Shown piece after piece: positions 13,207 through 21,155 of a stretch of DNA of 64,000 nucleotides (its first letter is position 1; the number at the start of each line of letters is the position of its first letter). A program made the position numbers and the translations under genes. The notes beneath the pieces were generated by a model. It worked only from the letters and a program-made list of their open reading frames with translations. It was not told the origin of the DNA and made no database searches. This stretch comes from Maribacter sp. Its GTDB lineage: Bacteria; Bacteroidota; Bacteroidia; Flavobacteriales; Flavobacteriaceae. The stretch spans positions 1-64,000 of the forward strand of contig NZ_JADGES010000001.1 in the NCBI RefSeq assembly GCF_016744255.1, written 5' to 3'.

Positions 13207-14250
13207 ATGAATATCATTAAGTTATTTATCTCATTTTCTTTATTAATCCTTTTATTCAGCTGTGGAGGCAGTAACCCTGCTGCTAGTTCTTTATTTGAAA
13301 TTGGACTAGAGGGAAACCAAAAAAAATTCACTCAAAATGAAATTGTAACCATAACATTAATAAATAAAAAAGAAAAAAATATTAATAACGTTACCTATTC
13401 CTTAGATGGAAAAGCCCTAAATGTAACCGACAATAAAATAAAACTTAACACATCTACACTTGGTAACAAAAGTATAAAAGCTAAAATTTCGTATGAGGAT
13501 ACAACCGCTGAAATAGAAAAAAAAATAACCATACTTTCTTCTAAATCTCCAGAAATTTACACCTATGAAATTATCAAAGAATACCCGCACGATATTAAAG
13601 CATACACACAAGGTTTAGAATTTTATAAAGACACACTTTATGAAAGTACAGGTAGAAGAGGACAATCTTCTTTACGCAAGGTAGATTATAAAACAGGAAA
13701 AATTCTGCAACAAATTGATTTAGACAAAACTTATTTTGGAGAAGGTATCACCATATTAAATGATAAACTGTACCAACTTACTTGGCAAAGTAAAACCGGT
13801 TTTATTTACGATTTAAATTCCTTTAAAAAAACTGGAAACTTTCAGTATGGCGATAGTAAAGAAGGATGGGGACTTTGCAATGACGGAAAAAAATTGTTTA
13901 AAAGTGATGGCACAGAAAAAATATGGTTTTTAAACCCAGACACTTTAATAGAACAAGAATATATTGAAACAGTATCTAATAAATCGGTATTTAACAAAGC
14001 TAATGAACTAGAATATGTAGACGGAAAAATCTATGCAAATGTATACCAAAAACCAAGTATAATGATTATAGATGCTACTAGTGGGGCTATAGAAGGGGTT
14101 ATTAACTTTAGTGGTCTAAAAAATAAAGTTACTAAACATGATGCTATTGATGTGCTAAACGGAATTGCATACCACCCTACTCGTAAAACTTTTTTTGTTA
14201 CCGGAAAAAACTGGGATAAACTTTTTGAGGTAAAAATACTTAAAAAGTAA
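13207..14250 (+). CDS. Glutaminyl-peptide cyclotransferase lipoprotein
   Basis: This 347-residue protein converts N-terminal glutamine of peptides to pyroglutamate. A lipoprotein signal (LFISFSLLILLFSCGG) is followed by an Ig-like domain (about 25-115). The plant/bacterial-type glutamine cyclotransferase five-bladed propeller runs from about 120 to the end: KEYPHDIKAYTQGLEF, YESTGRRGQSSLRKVD, FGEGITILNDKLYQLTW, NELEYVDGKIYANVY. It is probably anchored in the periplasm or on the surface. It leads a tight run with the thioesterase (4 bp gap) and the beta-helix lipoprotein. Confidence 0.9.
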   Translation: MNIIKLFISFSLLILLFSCGGSNPAASSLFEIGLEGNQKKFTQNEIVTITLINKKEKNINNVTYSLDGKALNVTDNKIKLNTSTLGNKSIKAKISYEDTTAEIEKKITILSSKSPEIYTYEIIKEYPHDIKAYTQGLEFYKDTLYESTGRRGQSSLRKVDYKTGKILQQIDLDKTYFGEGITILNDKLYQLTWQSKTGFIYDLNSFKKTGNFQYGDSKEGWGLCNDGKKLFKSDGTEKIWFLNPDTLIEQEYIETVSNKSVFNKANELEYVDGKIYANVYQKPSIMIIDATSGAIEGVINFSGLKNKVTKHDAIDVLNGIAYHPTRKTFFVTGKNWDKLFEVKILKK

Positions 14251-16176: not shown

Positions 16177-16185
16177 TTATTTTTG
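16153..16185 (+). promoter_or_regulatory. Candidate promoter for the LytTR gene
   Basis: TATTTTTG at 16178-16185 fits TAnnTTTG. TTTG at 16153-16156 is 21 bp upstream and lies inside the 3' end of the preceding gene. Transcription would begin near 16192, about 66 nt before the TTG start. Confidence 0.5.
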
Positions 16186-16257
16186 TAGGTTTTTTCTTTC
16201 TTTTTTTCTGATTTTTCTTAATTTAGAGAAATAACCTTTTTTTTTATAAGGTTTTGG

Positions 16258-17040
16258 TTGGGTCAATTCTTATTAGCATTACCTAATTTGCATCTAAACA
16301 AAATCCATTTGCACTATAAATACACCATAATAGATTCCAATGCAACTTCCAATTTGCAATTACAGCATTACATGGAAGACTATGGTGATTTTACGTGCAT
16401 TAATATTTCAAAAAACAAAAAAGAAGGACTACATAGTATTCTTAAGTTTTTGCCAGAGGTTGTTATTATTAACCTAAACGAAAACTCCGAAGAGTATTTT
16501 AGTATGATTACAGAGTTACACCAGTATTTAGAAAAATTACCCATATTTATAGGAATAGCAAAAAATAAAAATTTTGCTTACAATGCTATTAAAAATGATT
16601 TCTTTGATTACTGGCTACAACCTTATAACGAATATGAGATATTAAAGTCGCTCCTTAAATTAAAAAAGAAACTTCCAAAACAAGAAGTACCACAAACATT
16701 ATGTTTAAAATCTTATAGTGATTTTCAATATTTAAACACAAACAACATACTTTATTTAAGAGCAGATAATAATGCTACTGATTTTCACATGAAAGATGGC
16801 ACGATTAATAATGCCTATAAAACACTTAAAACATTTGAAAGTCAATTACCTCCTAATTTTGTTCGTATTCACCAAAGCTACATTGTAAACACCAATTACG
16901 TATCTAGAATAAATTATGGTAAATCTATTTGTGCTTTACGCCTAGTAAAAGTACAACTACCTTTCTCTAAATCTTACAAGATAAACGTAGACCAATTAAA
17001 AAAAGTACTATCTAGCAAAACCATTTCTTCGCTTAACTAA
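16258..17040 (+). CDS. LytTR-family DNA-binding regulator with degenerate receiver domain
   Basis: The N-terminal half (about 20-135) follows the receiver fold: YTIIDSN as strand 1, VVIINLNEN as strand 3, LPIFIGIAKN as strand 4, and YWLQPYNEYEIL where the conserved Lys region should be. The phospho-acceptor Asp is Asn in INLNEN, and the usual Lys of KPF is replaced, so phosphorylation control is unlikely. The C-terminal LytTR domain (about 150-255) is clear: ILYLRADNNATDFHMKDG, FVRIHQSYIVNTNYVSRI. No ATG precedes the receiver strand 1, so the start must be a TTG (16258, or 16309). The ATG at 16372 would delete strand 1. Confidence 0.85.
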   Translation: MGQFLLALPNLHLNKIHLHYKYTIIDSNATSNLQLQHYMEDYGDFTCINISKNKKEGLHSILKFLPEVVIINLNENSEEYFSMITELHQYLEKLPIFIGIAKNKNFAYNAIKNDFFDYWLQPYNEYEILKSLLKLKKKLPKQEVPQTLCLKSYSDFQYLNTNNILYLRADNNATDFHMKDGTINNAYKTLKTFESQLPPNFVRIHQSYIVNTNYVSRINYGKSICALRLVKVQLPFSKSYKINVDQLKKVLSSKTISSLN

Positions 17041-17109
17041 AAGATATTTCTCCTCCTTTTCTTTTTTCCTTTATACTTTCTATAATATATTCGCAAACTA
17101 CAAATACGC

Positions 17110-17151
17110 AACGCACTGATTATGCGTTATCTATACACACCTTCAATGTGT
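17110..17151. promoter_or_regulatory. Two short dyads with 7 nt centres upstream of the peptide gene
   Basis: AACGCA-N7-TGCGTT (17110-17128) and ACACA-N7-TGTGT (17135-17151) follow each other in the 285 bp gap between the LytTR gene and the peptide gene. Neither is followed by a T-run on the plus strand strong enough to call a terminator. They may be operator half-sites or small RNA hairpins. Confidence 0.35.
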
Positions 17152-17194
17152 TTTTCTCTACACAAAAAAAGACCTTACACTACTGCTTTTCTTT

Positions 17195-17243
17195 AAATAC
17201 TCGTAGAACTAAGACAAATACTCACAGATAGCTACCAAATACT
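17195..17243 (+). promoter_or_regulatory. Three AAATACT direct repeats at exact 21 bp period
   Basis: AAATACT occurs at 17195, 17216 and 17237. LytTR regulators typically bind short direct repeats about 21-22 bp apart on one helix face. The last repeat lies about 42 bp upstream of a TAAATTTA -7-like box (17285-17292), placing the array just upstream of the -33 region. It is a candidate activator site for the peptide gene at 17326. Confidence 0.5.
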
Positions 17244-17325
17244 AGTATGTTTTTACATATAGACCTTTCCTACCCTCTCTTCTCTAAATTTACAATAGAA
17301 ATATAACCCGAAAACAATTTAGAAA

Positions 17326-17481
17326 ATGAAAAAAGTAGCAAGTATTGTAGCAGTAGCATTATTTACATTAGGTATGTTCGCAACAGCAGTTAACACAGGA
17401 GATTCAGATTGGTCAGATCTTGCAAATGCAGTAGCATGTGATGATTGCGACCCAGGACATACTGGTAGAGGCAATGCCTAA
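17326..17481 (+). CDS. Small exported peptide, 51 residues, unknown function
   Basis: This gene is too short for the ORF track. The ATG at 17326 opens MKKVASIVAVALFTLGMFAT, a textbook signal peptide with two Lys and a hydrophobic core, then a polar tail ending ACDDCDPGHTGRGNA before TAA. The predicted mature part is about 25-30 residues, acidic, with a CDDC pair that could form a disulphide or bind metal. It has its own upstream repeats, a strong terminator 16 bp after the stop, and sits between a LytTR regulator and a TPR sensor kinase. A signalling peptide or a small secreted effector are both possible. No homologue is recalled. Confidence 0.78.
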   Translation: MKKVASIVAVALFTLGMFATAVNTGDSDWSDLANAVACDDCDPGHTGRGNA

Positions 17482-17496
17482 AATATATACACATTT

Positions 17497-17531
17497 AAAA
17501 AGCCTTAAATTTTTAGTTTAAGGCTTTTTTT
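17497..17531 (+). terminator. Strong intrinsic terminator after the small peptide gene
   Basis: AAAAAGCCTTAAA (17497-17509) pairs perfectly with TTTAAGGCTTTTT (17517-17529) around a 7 nt loop, followed by more T. The kinase ATG begins 14 bp later, so the kinase needs read-through or its own promoter. A weak TACCTTTA box lies at 17533-17540. Confidence 0.88.
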
Positions 17532-17545
17532 ATACCTTTATTTTA

Positions 17546-19615
17546 ATGAAGGCACACACCATAATATCCAAAAATAAATTTCCGCAATACATTTGCTTTA
17601 TAGCCCTTTCTGTATTCTTTTGTGCCTGCACCAATAACAAAGGAAGCGAACAAAAAAAAATAAAAAAAACAGCTCAACAAGATAGTATTAGCACTTGGGT
17701 TGCCAACGCAGAAAACAAAAACCTACCGAAAAAAGAACGCTTAATTTTTTTAGAAAAAGCATACATCCTCAACAAGAAACAACCCAAAGATTCGAATGCC
17801 ACTAAAACGCTTTCCACAATATCCTACACCTATTACCAGCTAAAAGACACTTTACTGTTTAGAAAAACCAATAAAGAAACCATTGCACTTGCTAAAATAA
17901 GTAAAGACTCCACAACCCTTGCTAATTCGTATTGGGATTTGGGGGGTTATTTAAGTAATAAAAAAGTAAACGACAGCGCTTTTTTTTACTACCACAAAGC
18001 TCAAAAGATTTTTAGCGCTAAAAAGAATAATTACTTAGCTGGTAGAATGTATAATAGAATGTCCTGGATACAACAGAGCATAAATGATAATACAGGAGCC
18101 GAAATAAACTGTACAAAAGCAATAGAATTAATAAAACCGTTAAAAAAATACAATGAACTATCTAGCTGTTATTCCACTATGGGGGTCATTGCTAATAATT
18201 TAGGAGAGCAAGAAAAATCTATAGGCTATTATGAAGAAGCCTTTAAATACGACAATAAGAAACCTAAAAAACAAAGCCCTAATTATAGCATACTAAATAA
18301 TATTGGGGTAGTTTACAAGAGTAATAAACAATATGCTAAAGCTATACCATATTTTAAACAATTAACAGAAATAGATAGTTTTAGTATAAAAAACCCTACT
18401 CTATACGCAACTGCATTAAACAACTTAGCCTATGCTAATTACAAGCTAAATATCTTAGACAATGTAGAAGCTCAGTTAAAAAAAGCATTGAAAATTAGAA
18501 AAAACCTCGGTAATACAGCAAAAATAGCTGGTAGCCACTATAGCTTAGGAGAATATTATTTAACTAAAAAGGACACTGCAAAAGCGCATAAAGAAGCTTT
18601 ATTAGCTAAAAAAAATGCAGAATTAAGCACCGCTAACAAACGCATATTAGAAGCTCTAGAATTATTAGCATTAACCAACCCAACAAAAGCTGCAGATTAT
18701 CGCCTAGAGCATATACAATTAGCTGACAGATTACAAAAAGAAGAACGTAAAATACGTAATAAATTTGCTCGTATCCGTTTCGAGACAGATGAATTTATTG
18801 CTGAAAATCTATTATTAGAAAGACAAAAACAACTCTGGACTGGTATTGCAATTGGTCTTATTCTTTTGATTATTTCTATCTATATAATTGTTACACAACG
18901 AGCTAAAAACCAAAAACTTAAGTTCGCGCAGCAGCAGCAAACTAATAACCAAGAAGTATTTAATTTAATGCTTGCTCAAAAACAAAAAGTAGAAGAAGCC
19001 AAAAGACAAGAGCAAAAAAGAATATCCGAAGAACTACATGATGGCGTACTAGGTAAAATGCTAGGTGCTAGAATGGTACTTACTGGATTAAACAAAAAAG
19101 CCGACCCAGAGGCTATCGCAGAAAAAGCAAAAGCAATAGTAGCTCTAAAAGATGCAGAAGGCGAGGTAAGAGCAATTTCTCACGAATTAAGTCACTCTGC
19201 TTATCAGAAAATTCCTAACTTTATTAATTCTATAACAGAACTATTAGAGTCCCTTGCTAAAAACGCAAAAATTGAACAAGATTTTAATTTTGACAATACA
19301 ATGGATTGGGATACGTTATCAGGAGACATAAAGATTAATGTATATAGAATGATACAAGAATGTGTACACAACTCTATAAAACATGCAAATTGCTCCAAAA
19401 TTTACGTGAATTTTGAAATTCATAAATCGAATTTTGAAGTTACTGTTGGCGATGATGGACAAGGTTATGTCCTTAATAAAGAGAAAAAAGGAATTGGATT
19501 ACGAAATATTAAATCGAGAATGGAAAAACTTAATGGTCACTTTACTGTAGATACCGCGCCTGGTCGTGGCACCTCATTTTTCTTTAATATTCCTTTTTCA
19601 AAAGTACCTGAATAG
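17546..19615 (+). CDS. TPR-containing sensor histidine kinase (NarL/DesK type)
   Basis: The 689-residue protein begins with an export signal (YICFIALSVFFCACTNN), possibly an imperfect lipobox. Residues 45-400 are TPR repeats (for example DLGGYLSNKKVNDSAFFYYHKAQ), predicted periplasmic. One membrane helix follows near 428-447 (GIAIGLILLIISIYIIV). The HisKA_3 box RISEELHDGVLGKMLGA carries the phospho-His near residue 498. The HATPase domain has the N box MIQECVHNSIKHAN, GDDGQGY and GIGLRNIKSRM. It likely phosphorylates the response regulator 55 bp downstream. TPR sensors bind peptides or proteins elsewhere, which makes the neighbouring exported peptide a candidate ligand. Confidence 0.93.
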   Translation: MKAHTIISKNKFPQYICFIALSVFFCACTNNKGSEQKKIKKTAQQDSISTWVANAENKNLPKKERLIFLEKAYILNKKQPKDSNATKTLSTISYTYYQLKDTLLFRKTNKETIALAKISKDSTTLANSYWDLGGYLSNKKVNDSAFFYYHKAQKIFSAKKNNYLAGRMYNRMSWIQQSINDNTGAEINCTKAIELIKPLKKYNELSSCYSTMGVIANNLGEQEKSIGYYEEAFKYDNKKPKKQSPNYSILNNIGVVYKSNKQYAKAIPYFKQLTEIDSFSIKNPTLYATALNNLAYANYKLNILDNVEAQLKKALKIRKNLGNTAKIAGSHYSLGEYYLTKKDTAKAHKEALLAKKNAELSTANKRILEALELLALTNPTKAADYRLEHIQLADRLQKEERKIRNKFARIRFETDEFIAENLLLERQKQLWTGIAIGLILLIISIYIIVTQRAKNQKLKFAQQQQTNNQEVFNLMLAQKQKVEEAKRQEQKRISEELHDGVLGKMLGARMVLTGLNKKADPEAIAEKAKAIVALKDAEGEVRAISHELSHSAYQKIPNFINSITELLESLAKNAKIEQDFNFDNTMDWDTLSGDIKINVYRMIQECVHNSIKHANCSKIYVNFEIHKSNFEVTVGDDGQGYVLNKEKKGIGLRNIKSRMEKLNGHFTVDTAPGRGTSFFFNIPFSKVPE

Positions 19616-19670
19616 AAAGAAAATAAAATTACTGTTTAACAAAATTCCCCTAAATAAATATACTTACTAA

Positions 19671-20342
19671 ATGGAAACAATCCGAATTTTAGCTATTGAT
19701 GATCACGAAATGACCCCTTTGGGATATAAATATATACTAGAGGGCACTGAATTTCCTAACTTTGAAGTTAAGGTAGATGTAGCCAGAGGGTTTGAACTAG
19801 GTAAATCTAAAATAGAATCTTCCGGACGCTCCACGATACATTATGATATTATTTTATTAGACATTCAACTTTTCCCTACCCACGCCCATGATGAGCGCAG
19901 TGGAGAAGATTTAGGTAAATTAGCTAGAGAAGTATCTCCTAATTCCAAAGTTGTTTTCATGTCCTCATTTAGCGATAGCTATAAAATTAATAGCGTTTTT
20001 AAAACTGTAGACCCAGATGGATATATGGTTAAATCTGAAATTGATGAACAATCTCTAATTGCCATGGTAGAAACCGTTGTTTCTAACCCTCCGTATTATA
20101 CCGCTGGAGCATTATCTGCTGTTAGACGAAAAATGGCCAATGACATCGTAATTGATGATGTGGACAAAAAAATACTATTCAACCTATCTGTAGGTGTGCG
20201 AACAAAAGACATTGCTCCATTAATTTCTGCCGCTATAACAACCGTAGAATCCAGGAAACGCCAATTAAAAACTCTTTTTGGCATAGATAACGGTAATGAC
20301 CTAGCCCTTATTGAGGAAGCAAGAAGGAGAGGCTTTCTTTAA
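19671..20342 (+). CDS. Response regulator, NarL/LuxR type
   Basis: This 223-residue regulator has a receiver domain with the acidic pair in LAIDDHEM, the phospho-acceptor Asp near residue 64 in IILLDIQLF, Ser-rich strand 4 (VVFMSSFSDS) and Lys in YMVKSEID. The acceptor lies about ten residues later than usual because of an insertion before it. The C-terminal LuxR-type helix-turn-helix reads VRTKDIAPLISAAITTVESRKRQLK. It pairs with the TPR kinase directly upstream. Its target genes are unknown. Confidence 0.92.
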   Translation: METIRILAIDDHEMTPLGYKYILEGTEFPNFEVKVDVARGFELGKSKIESSGRSTIHYDIILLDIQLFPTHAHDERSGEDLGKLAREVSPNSKVVFMSSFSDSYKINSVFKTVDPDGYMVKSEIDEQSLIAMVETVVSNPPYYTAGALSAVRRKMANDIVIDDVDKKILFNLSVGVRTKDIAPLISAAITTVESRKRQLKTLFGIDNGNDLALIEEARRRGFL

Positions 20343-20507: not shown

Positions 20508-21155
20508 ATGTCAGTATACAAAGACAACTCTCAAAACAGTGATGCTTGGAGGTTCCCCCAGACCCTTCAAAACGACTCTATATATTCTTTTATAAGAAAT
20601 ATAGAAAAATATTTTTTTGCTGAAGTAACCGTTCAGAATTGCACATACACAGAATGTGCGGTTGATTTAGCTATTCAGTTAGATTGCAACCTTACTCTTT
20701 TTGAAGTTTTAAACCATGCCAACTTAGGAACATGGGGAAATTTAAAAAATATCGATGCCCCTCTGCCCAAAGCACTGCAATCTTTAAAAAATGATAATAA
20801 TATAGATGTACGTATTGACGAGTTTTCGATATTCTTAAAAGACACATCTATAATTATTAAAAGAACTAATAACCTTAATATCTCGGAACAATTAGAGGGT
20901 ATTTTAAGGGAAATAAGTAGCCACTACATCTATTTTACCAAAGGTCTTTCTCAAAAACCATATGAAATTTACATTCCTATATCAGAGGAGGAAGAATTCG
21001 ATTATAACCTAAATAACACTGTTCCTACTACTGCAAAAAGTTATACAGAGTATTGGGGTATTTATTTTGAGTCTGAAGATGATGCAACTATTTATGATGT
21101 AAAAAATTCCGCTTATTTACCTGCAGAACTACATCTTTGTATGGCAGACGTATAG
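20508..21155 (+). CDS. Cytoplasmic protein of unknown function, 215 residues
   Basis: I do not recognise this family. The protein has no signal peptide or membrane segment and is acidic, with a net excess of Asp and Glu (for example EEEEFDYNLNN). It looks mixed alpha/beta: CAVDLAIQLDCNLTLFEVLNHA, then FSIFLKDTSIIIKRTNNLN. It follows the response regulator by 165 bp with its own candidate promoter, so it may be a target of that two-component pair or simply adjacent. Codon use and base composition are like the neighbours. Confidence 0.7.
   Translation: MSVYKDNSQNSDAWRFPQTLQNDSIYSFIRNIEKYFFAEVTVQNCTYTECAVDLAIQLDCNLTLFEVLNHANLGTWGNLKNIDAPLPKALQSLKNDNNIDVRIDEFSIFLKDTSIIIKRTNNLNISEQLEGILREISSHYIYFTKGLSQKPYEIYIPISEEEEFDYNLNNTVPTTAKSYTEYWGIYFESEDDATIYDVKNSAYLPAELHLCMADV

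Follow-up and report, generated by a model that had tools for sequence, protein, structure and literature searches.

The genome of Maribacter sp. (GCF_016744255.1) contains, within the 64,000-nucleotide stretch of contig NZ_JADGES010000001.1 analysed here (the window), a locus that probably encodes an exported signalling peptide, controlled by a LytTR regulator and read by a tetratricopeptide repeat (TPR) histidine kinase and its response regulator. The sequence and the list of open reading frames (ORFs) show a LytTR gene, a 51-codon ORF, a hairpin terminator, a TPR histidine kinase gene and a NarL-like response regulator gene, all on the + strand. Strong indirect evidence supports the pairing of the peptide with the kinase, of which it is a putative direct ligand. 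The sequence suggests that the kinase and the response regulator form the reading arm, and that the LytTR protein regulates the peptide promoter. The features of the locus are as follows.

16309..17040, + strand: LytTR DNA-binding regulator with a pseudo-receiver, Asp to Asn (PF04397, E = 9e-18)
17196..17250, + strand: putative LytTR operator made up of three AATACTC..AGA direct repeats spaced exactly 21 bp apart (lag and motif tests)
17285..17292, + strand: TAAATTTA, a possible -7 promoter element, cf. TAnnTTTG of Bacteroidota (read by eye)
17326..17481, + strand: exported peptide precursor, 51 residues, single-copy form (conservation in relatives; ratio of nonsynonymous to synonymous substitution rates, dN/dS)
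17326..17388, + strand: Sec signal peptide, residues 1-21, ending in ATA (sequence)
17437..17478, + strand: C-terminal core CDDCDPGHTGRGNA, the portion tandemly repeated in relatives (comparison with relatives)
17497..17529, + strand: intrinsic terminator between peptide and kinase genes (fold -20.3 kcal/mol, z -6.1)
17546..19615, + strand: TPR sensor histidine kinase, 689 residues (TPR_12, HisKA_3 and HATPase_c in Pfam; one transmembrane segment)
17678..18739, + strand: TPR superhelix, predicted to be periplasmic and proposed as the peptide receptor (AlphaFold2, Foldseek)
19671..20342, + strand: NarL-like response regulator, MctR-like, phospho-Asp intact (PF00072 below the gathering score)

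An earlier note on this DNA had listed the LytTR regulator, small ORF, terminator, TPR kinase and NarL-type regulator in one direction, and each of them is present. Tandem copies of the peptide unit, the upstream repeats and the paralogous pairings described below go beyond that note. The 51-codon gene with a signal peptide and CDDC tail encodes MKKVASIVAVALFTLGMFATAVNTGDSDWSDLANAVACDDCDPGHTGRGNA. A search for relatives by the kinase protein only gave 80 loci. In all 76 of these that have a LytTR gene upstream, a small ORF encoding a signal sequence lies between it and the kinase gene (76/76). The order of LytTR gene, small signal-peptide ORF and TPR kinase gene, which the earlier note had proposed to look for in flavobacteria, is thus kept, and the ORF was in no case absent or broken beside retained flanking genes, the outcome named there as fatal to the proposal. 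The 51-codon ORF is a real conserved gene, and not a chance ORF. The conserved order extends to UP, LytTR, peptide, kinase, regulator, a gene of no assigned family and glyA. A profile built from 35 of these peptides found further loci across Flavobacteriaceae, and among 198 sampled genomes of the order strong matches were confined to that family. Matches at the weak end of this search (E 1e-4 to 0.01) were mostly unrelated lipoprotein signal sequences, and were left out of the counts. Most counts below refer to a wider set of 102 distinct canonical loci; individual loci carry the prefix L.

The peptide gene is judged to be under purifying selection from dN/dS values of ~0.22 (leader) and ~0.17 (tail), calculated on single-copy peptides in pairs that are not independent. 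A lipobox ends the signal peptide in 58/102 loci and is missing in 44/102, and the part after the signal has a net negative charge in 100/102. The core unit of the Zobellia type is TDGDDVPTDRRGSS. Cores contain either no Cys or CxxC pairs at a spacing of 3, and never a single Cys, a pattern compatible with a disulfide or metal pair. The peptides matched no Pfam or NCBIfam family.

The post-signal part of the precursor is a tandem array of 2 to about 15 copies in 29/102 loci, with a short acidic unit of the form CDxC...DRR or TDGDD..DRR. Examples are TDGDDVQIDRRGSS in ten copies (L016), TDGDHVPTDTRDSS in six (L014), CDDCAHTKDRRKEKVASAT in seven (L035), a 28-residue unit in six (L142), and about 15 nearly identical 51-bp units (L149). 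Unit 4 of L149 has two deletions of one base each, both in homopolymers, that put the remainder out of frame; this is probably a sequencing error or a very recent event. Parsimony on a FastTree tree of other genes gave at least 13 changes of array state, gains and losses together. Copies within an array showed no amino-acid differences in L014, L026, L047, L071, L073, L120, L133 and L172, while the proportion of synonymous difference between copies was 0.25-0.84 in arrays that are in register (L051 and L140, out of register, were left out). Because the copies differ at synonymous sites and in almost no amino acid, the codon comparison shows selection to be holding the unit itself identical, a pattern expected where every unit gives the same product. 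Some Phr precursors of the Rap-Phr systems, which have TPR receptors, likewise carry several identical autoinducer copies (PMC5199041).

The pairing of a TPR kinase with a small exported ORF recurs at paralogous loci. Another group of TPR kinases, defined by profile A3, was present in 72/201 sampled Flavobacteriaceae genomes, and a small exported ORF lay within 500 bp upstream in 58/85 cases. The same rule found such an ORF upstream of 98/102 canonical kinases, compared with 60/373 random long frames (16%), 8/102 response regulator genes, 12/101 LytTR genes and 10/78 glyA genes. Type-2 peptides are small acidic lipoproteins with the related-looking cores ATEGDDGD and ACCGDDGEIPPPPPP, and that of L215 contains two copies of IDGNQSAGQSRKVD. 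Type-2 loci (L197-L295) occur across Flavobacteriaceae and comprise a TPR kinase, a response regulator and a small acidic lipoprotein (ATEGDDGD or ACCGDDGxIPPPPPP). The window's genome has one type-2 kinase (L196, G000:C143:8169-9821), on a contig that stops before its upstream region. No such upstream ORF was found at two other TPR kinases of the window's genome (L157, L158), or at remoter TPR kinases from outside Flavobacteriaceae but within the class (L205-L211). In L159, L165 and L167 the divergent upstream gene has no Pfam match above the cut-off. Similar small lipoproteins in L147, L153, L161 and L168 lie directly upstream of short membrane proteins of no assigned family, not of kinases.

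The region upstream of the peptide gene contains three repeats, AATACTCGTAGAACTAAGACA, AATACTCACAGATAGCTACCA and AATACTAGTATG. Across loci, 8-mers matching at a lag of 21 numbered 239 upstream of the peptide gene, against 13.5 expected. A motif model scored the repeat triple in 101/102 loci above every control segment; this motif was trained on the same upstream regions, and the lag test is the independent one. Within its own genome the perfect repeat pair occurs only at this locus, with one further site at 2 mismatches; sites with 3 mismatches are no commoner than for a reversed-pattern control. LytTR domains target direct repeats about two helical turns apart. Since the geometry of the repeats matches such targets, the neighbouring LytTR protein is likely to be a dedicated regulator of the peptide promoter. 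TAxTTTxG-like words stand at about the same place in relatives as the possible -7 element, and a generic sigma-70 promoter scan of the DNA was uninformative (22 found, 20.9 expected).

The receiver-like half of the LytTR protein has Asn at the phospho-Asp place (VVIINLN), as the earlier note had read it; Asn stands there in 92/102 relatives and Asp in only 2. Of the TTG codons at 16309 (243 residues) and 16258, the former is more likely to be the start because relatives also have a start codon there (TTG in 53, ATG in 36 and GTG in 11 of 101). The unusually high share of rare starts may hold LytTR translation low. The earlier note had likened the pairing of LytTR gene and peptide gene to Gram-positive quorum systems; the sequence, with its operator-like repeats, suggests instead that the LytTR protein controls the peptide promoter.

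The strong terminator reported after the small gene was likewise recovered, as a stem and T-run following the ORF in 100/102 loci, against 29 in shuffled sequence. A sub-threshold Rfam match to a Thr leader overlaps it on the opposite strand, and was taken as chance.

The kinase His and the phospho-Asp of the response regulator are each conserved in 102/102 loci. With the HATPase_c domain these make up the expected parts of a two-component system, the receiver domain scoring under the Pfam gathering cut-off. We infer that the TPR domain lies outside the inner membrane because the kinase has a hydrophobic N-terminus and one transmembrane segment. An AlphaFold2 model of the predicted periplasmic region, for which 55 orthologues were used, had a mean predicted local distance difference test score (pLDDT) of 89.9 and a predicted template modelling score (pTM) of 0.81, and consisted of a TPR superhelix continuing into a long helix through the membrane. 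The best Foldseek matches in the PDB were peptide-bound LGN/Pins TPR domains, followed by Rap proteins with Phr pheromones (RapJ-CSF 4gyo, Phi3T Rap 8rtc, 8rsv, RapF 4i9c); RapF 3ulq was also matched, and the Rap hits had E about 1e-6. RapF and Rap3T were also found by sequence profile. As many TPRs bind peptides, this structural likeness indicates the feasibility of peptide binding, not binding itself.

In the scheme that we infer, comprising LytTR binding, an export route, cleavage, TPR binding, a phosphorelay and cell-to-cell signalling, the LytTR protein would set peptide expression by binding the repeat triple that precedes the peptide promoter, as operator geometry and adjacency suggest. 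Sec would carry the precursor out of the cytoplasm; the acidic lipoprotein form found in many relatives would stay anchored, perhaps with an outward orientation. The precursor's C-terminal acidic unit, of the CxxC or TDGDD type and in 1 to about 15 identical copies, would be released or displayed as the signal, the release being putative. The periplasmic TPR superhelix of the adjoining kinase would then bind the unit, and the kinase would phosphorylate the adjoining NarL-like regulator. The terminator after the peptide gene may keep the peptide transcript above the kinase transcript.

The earlier note had proposed that the exported peptide is paired with the TPR kinase. Linkage, selected identical copies, operator-like repeats, paralogous pairing and the TPR fold support this, whereas tests of coevolution do not, and several observations weigh against a peptide signal read by the kinase. 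A mirror-tree comparison of peptide core and TPR gave a partial correlation of 0.06, negligible beyond phylogeny and the other domains, and under a tree-based null the CxxC/TDGDD switch was associated no more closely with TPR columns than with other domains. These results lower the receptor claim only mildly, because the cores are short and noisy; because of both, our confidence in the signalling scheme is no higher. No dedicated protease or exporter gene adjoins the peptide gene, and a peptide acting between cells would still need to cross the outer membrane. In lipobox-type orthologues, acidic residues directly follow the Cys, a pattern like the surface lipoprotein export signal of Bacteroidota (PMC5080379). 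Such a signal would ease the outer-membrane problem for those orthologues, not for the window's peptide, which is of the signal-peptidase-I type. The co-variation of peptide and TPR lengths that the earlier note had suggested looking for was not seen, the TPR domain having ~410 residues at one copy or ten.

This constancy across copy numbers also bears on a different explanation, that the small protein is a tethered, non-diffusible periplasmic or outer-membrane accessory of the kinase, such as a CpxP-like feedback regulator or an envelope-stress sensor, whose repeats raise avidity. The invariable linkage to the kinase, the lipoprotein nature of just over half of the orthologues and the missing exporter and protease would suit such an accessory. 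We nevertheless think it unlikely: the orthologues without a lipobox, the frequent shifts in copy number and the fixed TPR length fit it poorly, and many identical short units suit release or dosage better than folding. The unit could instead be a metal or redox module, with CxxC or a calcium-like DGDD site, through which the kinase senses metal or redox state. The gain and loss of CxxC Cys residues as pairs at constant spacing agrees with this, as does the general similarity of DGDD to acidic metal sites. The Cys and TDGDD types swap about 10 times on the tree with the partners unchanged, though, and no Pfam or NCBIfam metal-site model matched at cut-off, which makes this explanation very unlikely.

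Short, fast-evolving, exported multi-copy precursors are generally known among ribosomally synthesized and post-translationally modified peptides (RiPPs), and arrays are present here, so that the peptide might be a bacteriocin or modified peptide with the kinase as its sensing or immunity arm. We give this only a slim chance, given a conserved neighbourhood without a modification enzyme, peptidase-containing transporter or immunity gene, a Sec or lipoprotein signal in place of a double-glycine leader, and the missing family match. Last, an ordinary small exported protein might merely be located between the two genes; a secreted-like small ORF does lie within 500 bp of ~16% of random genes. Its conservation in every kinase-fetched relative with a LytTR gene, and the recurrence of the pairing at paralogous TPR-kinase loci, make such an accident scarcely credible.

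In its proposed working, the locus of exported peptide and TPR kinase is like the Rap-Phr systems (RRNPP, Bacillus), yet it is no member of them. Both have a TPR domain of similar fold, here the proposed receptor, beside a short gene for a Sec-exported peptide precursor, with identical autoinducer copies in some Phr precursors (PMC5199041); a mature C-terminal peptide is putative here. The Rap receptor is cytoplasmic and its peptide re-imported, whereas the TPR here is predicted to lie in the periplasm of a Gram-negative bacterium, as part of a membrane-bound histidine kinase, which would make re-import unnecessary. The peptides here are acidic, often lipoproteins, with longer units in up to about 15 copies, and have no evident sequence similarity to Phr peptides. 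Agr-type quorum systems also combine a peptide, a histidine kinase and a LytTR regulator in one locus. Here, in contrast, the LytTR protein lacks the phospho-Asp and is not the evident partner of the kinase, a separate NarL-like regulator being so; the sensor is a TPR domain rather than polytopic, and the conserved neighbourhood has no AgrB-like processing or export protein. With LytTR regulators in general, the locus shares the LytTR domain and a putative operator of 21-bp direct repeats. The Porphyromonas FimS-type TPR kinases of Bacteroidota (NF053520) share a TPR sensor domain on a histidine kinase, but the match, over TPR and linker only, scores 37 against a cut-off of 600 bits. We know of no peptide linked to FimS. 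The yeast alpha-factor precursor resembles the arrays as a secreted precursor with tandem identical units; this is an analogy only, with another receptor class and no recognized processing sites here.

Several neighbouring or variant arrangements were seen. In L005, L009, L021 and L022 the TPR kinase gene is doubled or tripled in tandem between a single peptide gene and a single response regulator gene, the two or three copies having 45-65% identity to the query; L021 and L022 seem to be one arrangement, and L021 ends before the peptide gene. The gene at 20508-21155, 3' of the response regulator gene, encodes a fast-evolving protein of no assigned family that faces glyA in nearly all relatives, and is a possible output gene or a plain neighbour. 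Three genes upstream of the LytTR gene is a glutamine cyclotransferase gene (13207-14250; PF05096, E = 3e-95), which some relatives also have upstream. Several type-2 cores come after Gln, and an N-terminal pyroglutamate is, speculatively, thinkable. An exported Cys-rich small protein (CRCHNDGICYGG..., L173:5151-5453) matched the leader part of the profile only, at a locus without a kinase match.

Peptide signalling between cells is textbook knowledge in Gram-positive bacteria and, to our knowledge, hardly known in Bacteroidota; we also know of no stimulus for any of the many TPR kinases of this phylum. A search of openly licensed papers turned up no report of a comparable system from Bacteroidota. 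We rate the chances as even that Flavobacteriaceae share a family-wide peptide-pheromone system, in which cognate TPR histidine kinases detect, on the outer side of the inner membrane, diverse short acidic peptides multiplied in the manner of alpha-factor. If true, Gram-negative bacteria would have a so far undescribed class of peptide receptors, divided into at least two paralogous subfamilies, and multi-copy pheromone precursors would have a bacterial counterpart besides the Phr peptides of Bacillus. For each kinase the locus supplies a candidate ligand short enough to synthesize, whose active unit the natural multi-copy precursors mark, and the question is directly testable in marine genera that can be cultured, among them Maribacter and Zobellia.

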